Shown piece by piece: positions 2,641-26,807 of a stretch of DNA of 64,000 nt. Within the stretch, counting starts at the first letter, position 1, and each line of letters begins with the position of its first letter. The stretch is from Microbacteriaceae bacterium. Lineage in GTDB: Bacteria; Actinomycetota; Actinomycetes; Actinomycetales; Microbacteriaceae. Both the position numbers and the translations under genes were made by a program. The DNA lies in the NCBI GenBank assembly GCA_014378715.1, contig JACMNE010000155.1, positions 1 through 64,000 of the forward strand, read 5' to 3'. Below the pieces are notes generated by a model. The model did no database searches. It saw only the letters and a program-made list of their open reading frames with translations, and was not told the DNA's origin.

Positions 2641-4935
2641 ATGTCAGATTTCAAGAAGCCGAACAACAACAAGTTCGAACCGCGCAAGCAGGCGCCGGGC
2701 AGCCGCAGCGAAGGCCACCGTGGATACCACGGCGACGCCGACCCGGCCAAGAAGCGCTGGAACGCCAGCGACCGTGCCGCCCGCACCGGCGACCGCCCCG
2801 CATCCAACGGACGCCCCGACTGGAACCCGCGCGAGCGTCCGGCGTCGAACGACCGTCCGCGTGGCAACTCGGACCGCCCCTCCTACGGCGACCGCCCCGC
2901 GCGTCCCGCCTACAACAACGACCGCCCGCAGCGGTCGAACACGGATCGCCCGTCGTACGGTGACCGCCCGCAGGGTGGCCAGCGTCCCTCCTACGGTGAC
3001 CGCCCGCAGCGCTCGAACACGGACCGCCCCTCCTACGGCGACCGCCCCGCGCGTCCCGCCTACAACAACGACCGCCCGCAGCGGTCGAACACAGATCGCC
3101 CGTCGTACGGTGACCGCCCGCAGCGCAGCAACACGGACCGCCCGTCGTACGGTGACCGCCCGCAGGGTGGCCAGCGTCCCTCCTACGGCGACCGCCCGCA
3201 GCGCTCGAACACGGACCGCCCCTCCTACGGCGACCGCCCCGACCGCACCGAGCGTCCCTCCTACGGAGACCGCCCGTCGCGCCCCTCGTACAACACCGAG
3301 CGCCCGTCCTACGGCGACCGCCCGCAGCGCTCGAACACGGACCGCCCCTCCTACGGGGACCGTCCGGACCGCCCGTCGCGTCCGTCCTACAGCGCGGACC
3401 GCAACAGCGCACCCGAGCGTCCTGCCCGCCCGGCCTGGAGCGACCGTCCGGCCACGAACGACCGCGCCCCGCGCACGTCGTACAACGACCGTCCGGCCCG
3501 TCCGTCCTACGGCGACCGCCCGGAGCGCAGCTCCTTCAACGACCGCCCCGACCGCACCGAGCGCCCGTCCTACAACGACCGCCCCGCGCGCTCGCAGGAC
3601 GACCGCCCGAAGCGCTGGGAGGACCGCGCCCCGCGCAGCGGCTCGGACGACCGTCCGGCCCGTCGCTCCTCCGACATGTACCCGTCGCACTCCGACGCCT
3701 CCGCTGGCCCCCAGGAGGACGTGGTCCTCGAGCGCCTCGAGGCCAAGGTGATCACCGCGGGCGACGTCGACGGCAAGACCTTCGGCGACCTCGGACTCGG
3801 CGACAACATCACCCGCCAGCTCGCCTCGATGGGAGCGGCCGCGCCGTTCGCCATCCAGGCGGCGACCATCCCCGACGTGCTCGCCGGCAAGGACGTCCTC
3901 GGACGGGGCCGCACCGGTTCCGGCAAGACGATCGCCTTCGGCGCCCCCCTCGTGGAGCGCCTGATGGAGAACAACGGCGGAGCGGGCCGCAAGCCGGGCC
4001 GTAAGCCCCGCGCGCTCATCCTCGCCCCGACCCGTGAGCTCGCCATGCAGATCGACCGCACCGTGCAGCCCATCGCCCGCTCGGTCGGCCTCTTCACCAC
4101 GACCATCGTCGGCGGAGTGCCGCAGTTCAAGCAGGTCTCCACCCTCCAGCGCGGCGTCGACATCGTCATCGCCACGCCGGGCCGGGTCGAGGACCTCATC
4201 GAGCAGGGTCGCCTCGACCTCTCCGAGGTCATGATCACTGTCCTCGACGAGGCCGACCACATGTGCGACCTCGGGTTCCTCGAGCCCGTGCAGCGCATCC
4301 TCAAGGAGACCAAGGCCAACGGCCAGAAGCTCCTCTTCTCGGCCACGCTCGACAAGGGTGTCGCCACCCTCGTCAAGCAGTTCCTCAAGGACCCGGCCGT
4401 GCACGAGGTCGCCGGTGAGGACCAGGCGTCCTCGACAATCGACCACAAGGTGCTCCTCATCGAGCAGCGCGACAAGCGCGCGATCATCGAGCAGCTCGCC
4501 GCAGGTGCAGGCAAGACCCTCATCTTCGCGCGCACCCGTGCTTTCGCCGAGGAACTCGCCGACCAGCTCGAGGGCGCCGGCGTTCCGGCCACCTCGCTGC
4601 ACGGGGACCTGAACCAGTCCCGCCGCACGCGCAACCTGCAGCTGCTCACGAGCGGCCGCGTCAACGTGATGGTGGCAACCGATGTCGCGGCCCGCGGCAT
4701 CCACGTCGACGACATCAGCCTGGTCATCCAGGCCGACGCCCCCGACGAGTACAAGACGTACCTGCACCGCTCGGGCCGCACCGGTCGTGCCGGCAAGACC
4801 GGAACCGTCGTCACCCTCGTCTCCAAGTCGCGCAAGCGTCGGATGGACGAGCTGCTCGACCGAGCCGAGATCACGGCCTCATCGCTCAACGCCCGCCCCG
4901 GCGACGCGCTGCTCGACGAGCTCGCCGCGCTCTAA
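2641..4935 (+). CDS. DEAD/DEAH-box ATP-dependent RNA helicase with long repetitive R/D/P/S/Y-rich N-terminus
   Basis: GRGRTGSGKTIAFG, PTRELAMQ, TPGRVEDL, DEADHM, FSATL and HRSGRTGRAG motifs; start placed at MSDFKKPNNNKF (ORF extends to 2602). Confidence 0.93.
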   Translation: MSDFKKPNNNKFEPRKQAPGSRSEGHRGYHGDADPAKKRWNASDRAARTGDRPASNGRPDWNPRERPASNDRPRGNSDRPSYGDRPARPAYNNDRPQRSNTDRPSYGDRPQGGQRPSYGDRPQRSNTDRPSYGDRPARPAYNNDRPQRSNTDRPSYGDRPQRSNTDRPSYGDRPQGGQRPSYGDRPQRSNTDRPSYGDRPDRTERPSYGDRPSRPSYNTERPSYGDRPQRSNTDRPSYGDRPDRPSRPSYSADRNSAPERPARPAWSDRPATNDRAPRTSYNDRPARPSYGDRPERSSFNDRPDRTERPSYNDRPARSQDDRPKRWEDRAPRSGSDDRPARRSSDMYPSHSDASAGPQEDVVLERLEAKVITAGDVDGKTFGDLGLGDNITRQLASMGAAAPFAIQAATIPDVLAGKDVLGRGRTGSGKTIAFGAPLVERLMENNGGAGRKPGRKPRALILAPTRELAMQIDRTVQPIARSVGLFTTTIVGGVPQFKQVSTLQRGVDIVIATPGRVEDLIEQGRLDLSEVMITVLDEADHMCDLGFLEPVQRILKETKANGQKLLFSATLDKGVATLVKQFLKDPAVHEVAGEDQASSTIDHKVLLIEQRDKRAIIEQLAAGAGKTLIFARTRAFAEELADQLEGAGVPATSLHGDLNQSRRTRNLQLLTSGRVNVMVATDVAARGIHVDDISLVIQADAPDEYKTYLHRSGRTGRAGKTGTVVTLVSKSRKRRMDELLDRAEITASSLNARPGDALLDELAAL
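2875..3600 (+). repeat. In-frame coding repeat array (PSYGDRP / QRSNTDRPSYGDRP units)
   Basis: 12 copies of PSYGDRP counted in the ORF translation; near-identical DNA blocks such as gaccgccccgcgcgtcccgcctacaacaacgaccgcccgcag near 2890 and 3040. Confidence 0.9.
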
Positions 4936-4982: not shown

Positions 4983-5242
4983 TGCGTTGGCCGGTGCCGA
5001 TCGCTACGGTGTTCGCCAGTGCCATGAGGCTGGGAGCCGGTCAGGTCACAGGTGGCTGTCCAGTGGTCCGCGATCTCCCTCGCCTGTATGCGGATATGCG
5101 GTGCAGAGCCGTCGCGGCCACCCCTCTGCGGGCTGTCGACACATCTCCGTACACCCCGAACTGAGGCCCGTCCAGCTGGGCTGAGGGTGGAGGAGCCTAC
5201 CCGTCAGGAGTTCTCGTCGCCGACACTCGTCGCTGCACCCGG

Positions 5243-5428
5243 TCGTCATTCAGGAGAAGCGGATGTTGCGCTACGGCGTCTCGCACGAACATGGTGTCCA
5301 TCCGTGAAAGAACGGCGCGATCCGCCACATCCGCTGAATCAACGCAAGATATCGTCGGGCGGCCACGAGTGCTCCTGAATGATGATCAGGAGGAAGACGG
5401 GCGTGAACCCGTGCTCCTGAATGATGAC
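5243..5428. repeat. Nested inverted/direct repeat block in tail-to-tail intergenic region
   Basis: tcattcaggag 5246-5256; agcggatgttgcg 5258-5270; cgccacatccgct 5323-5335; gtgctcctgaatgatga at 5369-5385 and 5411-5427. Confidence 0.7.
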
Positions 5429-5459
5429 TCGAGAAGAACCGGCCCGCCGCCTTAATGGC

Positions 5460-18519: not shown

Positions 18520-19736
18520 CCGCGCCCCGCTTCGTGAACGTCGGCATCGTCGGCGGCGGGCTGATGGGGCGGGAGATCGCCGCTGCGCTGCGCCGCTGGC
18601 CCGCCCTCATCGACCACCCGGTGGTACCCAGGCTCACCGCGATCGCCGACATCAACCCGCTCGCCCTCGACTGGTTCCGCTCGATCGACACCGTCGAGAC
18701 GTTCGCCACCGACTACCGCGACCTGCTCGCCGACCCGAATGTCGATGTCGTCTACATCGCCGTGCGGCACGACCTGCACGAGCAGCTGTACACCGACACG
18801 ATCCGCGCCGGGAAGCACCTCCTCGCCGAGAAGCCGTTCGGCATCGACCCGTCCGCCGCCGACGCCATCCTCTCCGCGATCGATGCCACTCCCGGCTCGT
18901 TCGTCCGAGTCTCCAGCGAGATGCCGTTCTTCCCCGGAGCCCAGGCGGCCTTCGCCCACATCCGCTCGGGAGGGATCGGCAGGGTCATCGAGGCGACGAG
19001 CTCGTTCCTGCACTCGAGCGATTTCGACCTGGACAAGCCGGTGAACTGGAAGCGGCAGGTGAGGTTCAACGGGCGGGCCGGGGTCATGAACGACCTGGGG
19101 CTGCACGCGTGGCACGTGCCGCTGCGCCTCGGCTGGGTTCCGCAGCGGCTGTACGCCGTGCTGCAGGACCTCGTGCCGTTCCGCCCGGGTCCCGACGGCA
19201 CCCTCGTGCCGTGTGACACCTGGGAGAACGCGCGCATCCTCGCCACGGTCGCGCAGGACGGCTACGAGTTCCCGCTCACCGTCGACACGAAGCGCATCGA
19301 CCCCGGGCAGAAGAACACCTGGAGTCTCACCGTGACCGGTCTCGACGGCGCCGTGAGCTTCTCTACCGCGCATCCCACGACCCTGCGCGTCCTCACCCGC
19401 GAGACGCAGCCCGCGCTCGGTCCTCTCGCAGCGGAGCAACGCTGGCAGCACGTGCAGGTCGGCAGCCAGTCGGTCTGGCCGACGGTCACCGGCGGCATCT
19501 TCGAGACCGGGTTCTCCGACACGATCCTGCAGATGTGGGCCTCCTTCCTCGCCGAACGCGACGGCGCCCTCGGAGGCGGCTTCGGCTGCGTCACTCCGGA
19601 AGAGGCCTGGAGCACGCACCGCATCTACGCCGCCGCCCTCGCCTCGCACGCAGGGCAGAGCGTTGTCGCCCCCGACTTCGCCCCCTTGGCGAAAGCGGAT
19701 GTCGCGACATCCGCCACAACGACGGGAACCGCATGA
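18516..19736 (+). CDS. Gfo/Idh/MocA family oxidoreductase
   Basis: VNVGIVGGGLMGREIAAAL Rossmann motif, HLLAEKPFGIDPSAAD (EKP motif); GTG start overlaps upstream stop. Confidence 0.9.
   Translation: MTAPRFVNVGIVGGGLMGREIAAALRRWPALIDHPVVPRLTAIADINPLALDWFRSIDTVETFATDYRDLLADPNVDVVYIAVRHDLHEQLYTDTIRAGKHLLAEKPFGIDPSAADAILSAIDATPGSFVRVSSEMPFFPGAQAAFAHIRSGGIGRVIEATSSFLHSSDFDLDKPVNWKRQVRFNGRAGVMNDLGLHAWHVPLRLGWVPQRLYAVLQDLVPFRPGPDGTLVPCDTWENARILATVAQDGYEFPLTVDTKRIDPGQKNTWSLTVTGLDGAVSFSTAHPTTLRVLTRETQPALGPLAAEQRWQHVQVGSQSVWPTVTGGIFETGFSDTILQMWASFLAERDGALGGGFGCVTPEEAWSTHRIYAAALASHAGQSVVAPDFAPLAKADVATSATTTGTA
19694..19715. repeat. 20-bp perfect palindrome GCGGATGTCGCGACATCCGC (19695-19714), two head-to-head copies of the dispersed 12-mer
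   Basis: Read directly in aagcggatgtcgcgacatccgcc. Confidence 0.9.
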
Positions 19737-25805: not shown

Positions 25806-26807
25806 GTGCCGGGCATCGTCACGGTGACGGCGGCCGCCGCGATCGACCAGACGTACGCGGTGGCCGGGTTCGTTCCGGGCGGGGTGAACCGCGCGACATC
25901 GGCTCACCGGGAGATCAGCGGCAAGGGCGTGAACGTGGCGCGGGCGGTCGGGCTGGGCGGACACCCCGTGAGCGCGGTGCTCGTGCTCGGCGAGGCGGAG
26001 CTCGCTATGGTCGGCGGCAGCGGGTTCGGCGAGCTGCTGCACGTGGTGCCGGTGCCGGGGAACACGCGGCTGAACACGACGATCCTGGACGGGCTCGGGC
26101 GCACGACGAAGGTCAACGAGGGGCCGGTGCCGCTGACGCGGGCGGACTGGACTGCGCTGCGCGACCTCGCGGTGGCGGAGGTGGAGCGGCTGGGCGCCGA
26201 CTGGCTCGTGCTGAGCGGCACCCTGCCCGCGATCCGCGAGCGCGGCATCATTCAGGAGTCGGGGCTGCTGCCGATCCGTGAGTTGATCGACCTCGCGGTC
26301 GCGGCGGGTGCGCGGATCGCCGTCGACACCAGCGGCACCGACCTCGACGCCCTGGTGCGGAATCTCGAGAACATCGCCCTGCTCAAGCCGAACACCCACG
26401 AGCTGGCTGGCGTTGTCGGACGCGACCTGCTGACGATCGGCGACGTGATCGGCGCGGCCGAGGAGCTGCGGACCCGCGGTGTCGAGACGGTCTACGTGAG
26501 CATGGGGGAGGACGGCGCGCTCGCCGTGGCCGCCACCGGCGTCTGGTGGGCCCGCGCCACTCCCGCGCGGCTCCTGAACACTGCGGGTGCTGGCGACGCG
26601 TCGCTCGCCGGATTCCTCGTCAACGCGCTGCGGGACGACGGCTCGCTCGACATCCCCGCTGCGATCCGTGCGGCGGCGTCCTGGGGCGCGCTGTCGGTGT
26701 CACAGTCGACGACGCTGCTGAGCGACGTGACGCAGGCTCCGCTCGCCGAGCTCGTGGACTCGCCGGATCCATCGCGAATCCTCGCCGATCCTGGCCGGGG
26801 CGGGTAG
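25806..26807 (+). CDS. PfkB-family kinase (1-phosphofructokinase / tagatose-6-phosphate kinase-like)
   Basis: GKGVNVARAVGLGGHPVSAV, GADWLVLSGTLP, LKPNTHELAGVVGR, NTAGAGDASLAGFLVNAL. Confidence 0.9.
   Translation: MPGIVTVTAAAAIDQTYAVAGFVPGGVNRATSAHREISGKGVNVARAVGLGGHPVSAVLVLGEAELAMVGGSGFGELLHVVPVPGNTRLNTTILDGLGRTTKVNEGPVPLTRADWTALRDLAVAEVERLGADWLVLSGTLPAIRERGIIQESGLLPIRELIDLAVAAGARIAVDTSGTDLDALVRNLENIALLKPNTHELAGVVGRDLLTIGDVIGAAEELRTRGVETVYVSMGEDGALAVAATGVWWARATPARLLNTAGAGDASLAGFLVNALRDDGSLDIPAAIRAAASWGALSVSQSTTLLSDVTQAPLAELVDSPDPSRILADPGRGG

Follow-up and report, generated by a model that had tools for sequence, protein, structure and literature searches.

A repeat block between two converging genes

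In the window analysed here, a stretch of 64,000 nucleotides from a Microbacteriaceae bacterium (contig JACMNE010000155.1), a gene for a DEAD-box helicase (2641-4935) and a TetR-like gene are arranged tail-to-tail with stop codons at 4935 and 5460, as a preliminary description had read them, and a nested block of repeats (positions 5243-5428) occupies the gap between the two (Table 1). The helicase itself carries a long N-terminal low-complexity region with DRPSYGDRP-type repeats. The inverted and direct repeats named in that description were all recovered when the sequence was checked: the outer arms (5242-5256 and 5414-5428) match at 14 of 15 positions and the inner arms at 12 of 13, while a direct copy at 5369 and 5411, with a step of 42 bp, extends to 30 bp at 83% identity. 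With up to three mismatches, CTCCTGAATGATGA occurs nine times in the window where 2.6 occurrences are expected, a number reached by one of 100 shuffles, and its exact or one-mismatch matches are concentrated in the block, the exception being a lone match at 26245 inside a coding sequence. The repeat unit is an asymmetric 14-mer, TCATCATTCAGGAG, and not a palindrome.

Two further parts of the block carry less weight. The local hairpin CTCCTGA-N7-TCAGGAG (5372-5392) pointed out earlier is present, but none was seen in the other copies displayed and it is probably incidental. Upstream of the left arm, a possible outer site lines up, once a gap of 13 bp is allowed, with the outer left site in other copies, and was not recovered as a site in a scan allowing four mismatches.

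Table 1. Parts of the repeat block and its surroundings in the window
Feature	Position	Strand	Remark
Possible degenerate outer left site	5197..5210	+	only TCAGGAG kept, >4 mismatches; weak
Left inward-facing 14-bp site TCGTCATTCAGGAG	5243..5256	+	1 mismatch to TCATCATTCAGGAG
Centre of the element	5257..5371	.	member of a subfamily in the window's own genome with ~15 homologous 128-130 bp centres
Left inner arm AGCGGATGTTGCG	5258..5270	+	copy of dispersed motif GCGGATGTSGCG
Right inner arm CGCCACATCCGCT	5323..5335	-	dispersed motif GCGGATGTSGCG, inverted
Right inner inverted site	5372..5385	-	exact; 129 bp from left site
Right outer inverted site	5414..5427	-	exact; 42 bp (four helical turns) beyond inner site

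A genus-restricted family with a common plan

Copies elsewhere and conservation in relatives, whose joint absence was to have told against the block, were both found. A BLAST search of the window's own genome (G000; 187 contigs, 3.0 Mb) with 5200-5450 as query gave matches at 15 other places, of which 12 align over about 150-210 bp at 67-75% identity; near-identical copies are absent from this set. Exact matches to TCATYATTCAGGAG number 71 in this genome, with none for the reversed control, 102 in G001, a congener that is probably the MAG CAN_BIN33, 34 in Marisediminicola senii and 110 in M. antarctica; two other congeners, G002 and G004, have none. Nearly all of the more distant relatives searched are without such a site and two hold one each, the tandem pattern in other public genomes (Vibrio, Clostridia and others) is limited to isolated matches that were treated as chance, and a literature search found no description of such elements in Microbacteriaceae. 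The window block is one dispersed copy among dozens in a genus-restricted family, not a local curiosity, and the element is apparently a DNA element of the genus Marisediminicola that is new to the literature. One degenerate copy in the window's own genome (L015, G000:C174:2212-2295) lies within ~1 kb of parB (G000:C174:1313-1606).

The plan of the element consists of one to five tandem 14-bp sites pointing right, a centre of 60-190 bp and one to four sites pointing left. Once the copies of the window's own genome are turned the same way and aligned, a common order emerges: outer and inner sites of the form TCATCATTCAGGAG come first, followed by a centre with both AAGCGGATGTCGCG and CGCCACATCCGCT and, to its right, by inverted sites. 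This inward topology holds in all 41 clusters of M. antarctica, bar two weak one-sided pairs, and in 14 of 14 CAN_BIN33 elements. Across the 318 sites collected, conservation is 97-100% at positions 2 and 6-13, the consensus being GCTTTCATCATTCAGGAGT in three congeners and TCATCATTCAGGAG in the window's own genome. The centres are mostly unrelated, with the 128-130 bp subfamily that includes the window copy as the main exception; many hold an inverted pair, GCGGATGT/ACATCCGC in the window's own genome and GGATGC/GCATCC elsewhere, and several hold none. A small palindrome of the type GCACGAATCGTGC, possibly a binding site as well, is found repeatedly: it lies in the centre of two M. senii elements (L049, L050) and occurs also in the 128-130 bp centres.

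That the inner arms carry a dispersed core motif was borne out, with 38 copies of GCGGATGT in the window against 4.3 expected. Genome-wide, the exact 12-mer GCGGATGTSGCG (wider consensus AGCGGATGTCGC) is present 521 times, about evenly on both strands, compared with five for the reversed control; congeners hold 12-27 copies, and in a few further genera of the family the count is 57-70. A candidate species dialect of this motif, GCGGATGCTGCG, was rejected, being only mildly enriched in congeners (48 copies in G001, 57 in M. antarctica) and present 52 times in the window's own genome too, and in M. antarctica no dispersed k-mer stands out besides the array itself. At 19695-19714 of the window, AGCGGATGTCGCGACATCCGC forms a perfect inverted pair of the motif, resembling terminator-forming pairs of uptake sequences. 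Its abundance and such perfect pairs would fit the idea that the inner arms are the functional part, a paired DNA-uptake-like motif as in the two-uptake-sequence terminators of Neisseria. We consider this most improbable: the motif is scarce in the array-bearing congeners (12-26 copies), whose centres bear GGATGC pairs or none, several elements of the window's own genome are without it (L020, L022, L023, L032), and the constant part is the 14-bp arrays. The dispersed motif, which is like an uptake signal in number and spread, is a separate, species-specific phenomenon.

Sites are spaced by whole helical turns

The left-right spacings fall into classes near 70, 79, 89, 100, 110, 121, 130, 140 and 151 bp and the same-side spacings lie near 31-34, 43, 54 and 64 bp, so that both series step by ~10.5 bp. 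With homologous centres collapsed, 56 independent spacings remain, and their periodicity at 10.4 bp has an R of 0.75; jittering every spacing by up to 15 bp gave no value this high in 2000 nulls. M. antarctica alone is likewise unmatched by any of 2000 nulls, and the small sets from M. senii and the window's own genome are each matched by 2 of 2000. The CAN_BIN33 loci obey a phase fixed beforehand (V-test u=3.3; 14 loci, at least one of which overlaps a locus used earlier). Since the 33-bp tandem units in part duplicate one another, weight is placed on the spacings across unrelated centres.

The preliminary description had also considered a structured non-coding RNA, and several features of the element would agree with a bidirectional terminator or a 3' UTR structure formed by pairing of the left and right arms in the transcript. 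On both strands the predicted fold of the 211-nt block is better than that of shuffled sequences (z -3.6 and -3.2), as is expected from its inverted repeats, the elements sit just behind stop codons and some centres have short GGATGC...GCATCC hairpins. Covariation does not follow this prediction: the covariation term is +0.1, pairs of both arms are broken without compensation, and neither the covariation analysis nor that of one-sided changes found compensatory base changes supporting a stem. One-sided changes dominate, with 152 compared to 16 that are matched on the other side (8.5 expected); it is the sequence that is conserved and not the pairing, and the window matches no Rfam family. A base-paired RNA would, moreover, not need helix-turn spacing across unrelated centres, as sites on one face of B-DNA would. 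The periodic spacing across 56 non-homologous centres therefore points to double-stranded DNA bound on one helical face as the functional form, and we regard an RNA element as improbable.

Elements follow stop codons and are sparse in the terminus region of M. antarctica

In M. antarctica, 35 elements are distributed over 23 convergent, 10 co-directional and 2 divergent gaps. The convergent share thereby exceeds that of the background, in which 114 of 559 gaps (20%) are convergent (odds ratio 7.5, p=3e-8; gaps of at least 100 bp in 1.65 Mb of the chromosome, genes called with a simple codon-usage caller). From the array edge to the facing stop codon the median distance is 19.5 bp.

Along the same chromosome, on which the origin was placed by dnaA (407 kb) and parB (413 kb), GC skew being too weak, 27 of the 43 exact-site clusters fall within the first quarter of the path from dnaA to its antipode, and the terminus region between 1.63 and 2.77 Mb holds one exact-site cluster only (KS p=2e-6, for the matches listed, all but four of the 110 sites). 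Within the 1.65 Mb read for the gap census, elements track convergent gaps evenly (KS p=0.57), so that the signal amounts to a depletion of the terminus region. This bias comes from one complete chromosome, and gene content could be its cause.

The nucleoid occlusion proteins Noc (NBS) and SlmA have dozens of short binding sites that are distributed along the chromosome and become rare towards the terminus. The element shares the sparsity near the terminus, as judged from one complete genome, and departs from those single palindromes by its inward-facing tandem arrays. Noc sites are scattered on the chromosome (PMC4331003). Noc-type occlusion sites were nevertheless rejected as an assignment, as no extra ParB-family protein follows the site-bearing genomes: one ParB was counted in the window's own genome, in M. 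antarctica, in G002 and in G004, two in M. senii, and none was found in G001.

Turnover at orthologous positions

One convergent gene pair harbours an element in the window's own genome, in M. antarctica and in G001 (L031, L038 and L130). The genes on either side show 87-88% identity, yet the three elements differ in how many sites they have, in spacing (by whole turns) and in their centres; at the corresponding position in G002 and M. senii, where the neighbouring gene differs, there is no element. For three further elements of the window's own genome the orthologous gaps in M. antarctica are also filled, and others, the window element included, are without a filled orthologous gap there. As the element is missing from several convergent gaps in a congener, no single site is indispensable. 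A synteny comparison for an empty site of the window element encountered different neighbours in both M. antarctica and M. senii. Empty gaps elsewhere, in which an insertion point was sought, are too diverged to reveal one. That everything apart from the sites and their phase can be replaced is the mark of selection on binding sites.

The earlier proposal of a remnant of a MITE- or REP-like element holds in so far as the block is a dispersed intergenic repeat between convergent genes; REP/RAYT membership is not supported, and for a MITE the findings point both ways. The ends of Tn7, Tn402 and Mu consist of inward-facing tandem sites that bind the transposase, and the element shares this layout, with tandem sites pointing inward at both ends as also in MITEs. 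The copies could accordingly be old insertions of a non-autonomous mobile element downstream of genes, with the phasing serving a transpososome. In the window's own genome, ~15 copies share a homologous centre, from which it follows that copying has happened, and element-free gaps exist in congeners. The ends are inverted, and homologous centres occur in the 128-130 bp subfamily and a few pairs only. Against insertion stands that direct repeats at the borders of 76 elements are at or near the expectation from permuted flanks, which leaves no target-site duplication above chance, and that the best pairs of copies reach ~75% identity. Sites and phase persist across mostly unrelated centres, orthologous positions are kept between species, unlike those of decaying insertions, and no viral contig contains the tandem sites, which is also the finding on the attachment site considered in the preliminary description. 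A mobile origin of this kind is thus judged unlikely.

As for REP elements and BIMEs, some of them bind nucleoid proteins, as do the IHF- and gyrase-binding BIMEs of E. coli. They consist of short repeats that face either way and are grouped in clusters scattered over intergenic regions, for the most part behind genes and between convergent or co-directional ones (PMC3733652), and the element resembles them in this location. It differs in its asymmetric 14-mer unit, theirs being a palindrome of 20-40 bp with a GTAG/CGTC tag, and in its strict inward topology and helix-turn spacing. The search for a partner transposase, which covered the Y1 family, found no Y1 (RAYT) transposase (PF01797) in any of six genomes, with control genomes positive, which argues against REP/RAYT membership.

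Discussion

Taken on its plan and spacing, the element is very probably a phased protein-binding array, whatever the role of that array may be. Whole-turn spacing of asymmetric or repeated sites, by which proteins cooperate or loop DNA, is familiar from plasmid replication iterons and from the looped operators of lac, gal and ara, and the sites of the element lie likewise at whole turns on the same helical face. Unlike those systems, the element occurs at ~40 loci per genome, at 3' ends and with mostly unrelated centres, and is without association with replication genes or promoters. Another short repeat without assigned function, the TAACTGA direct repeat of Beggiatoaceae, is found in more than 100 intergenic sets; these heptamers lie just upstream of start codons, are almost only direct and have been read as RNA-level signals (PMC4679880). 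The 14-mers described here are, in contrast, located behind stop codons and form inverted arrays.

We propose that a putative sequence-specific protein binds each asymmetric 14-bp site. Because same-side sites are whole helical turns apart, the bound protomers would come to lie on one face of the DNA, where they could touch, and the protein may oligomerise along that face. Since the two arrays face one another at a fixed phase, they could come together in a synapse, with the 60-190 bp centre closed into a short loop, or else build a single rigid complex. Positive supercoils gather between converging genes in other organisms (PMC8360656). The elements lie directly after stop codons, for the most part in convergent gaps and rarely at divergent promoters. 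This location suggests that they serve as boundaries or in DNA architecture at places where positive supercoiling would coincide with converging transcription, mainly on the origin side of the chromosome; we give a protein-binding array with such a role about even chances. More tentatively, and with some doubt, the elements could represent a new class of bacterial chromosome element, in which paired, inward-facing, helically phased arrays and a putative oligomeric protein close small loops where converging genes have their 3' ends and act as topological or transcriptional boundaries over the origin side.

The quantisation by helical turns over dozens of unrelated intergenic sequences constitutes direct evidence, obtained from sequence only, that a dispersed repeat works as a nucleoprotein site. 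The element thus provides a handle on what occupies convergent gaps in bacteria, consisting of a 14-bp bait, matched congeners with and without sites, and a half-turn mutation, and bears on the part that dispersed repeats may play in chromosome organisation or in the insulation of transcription.
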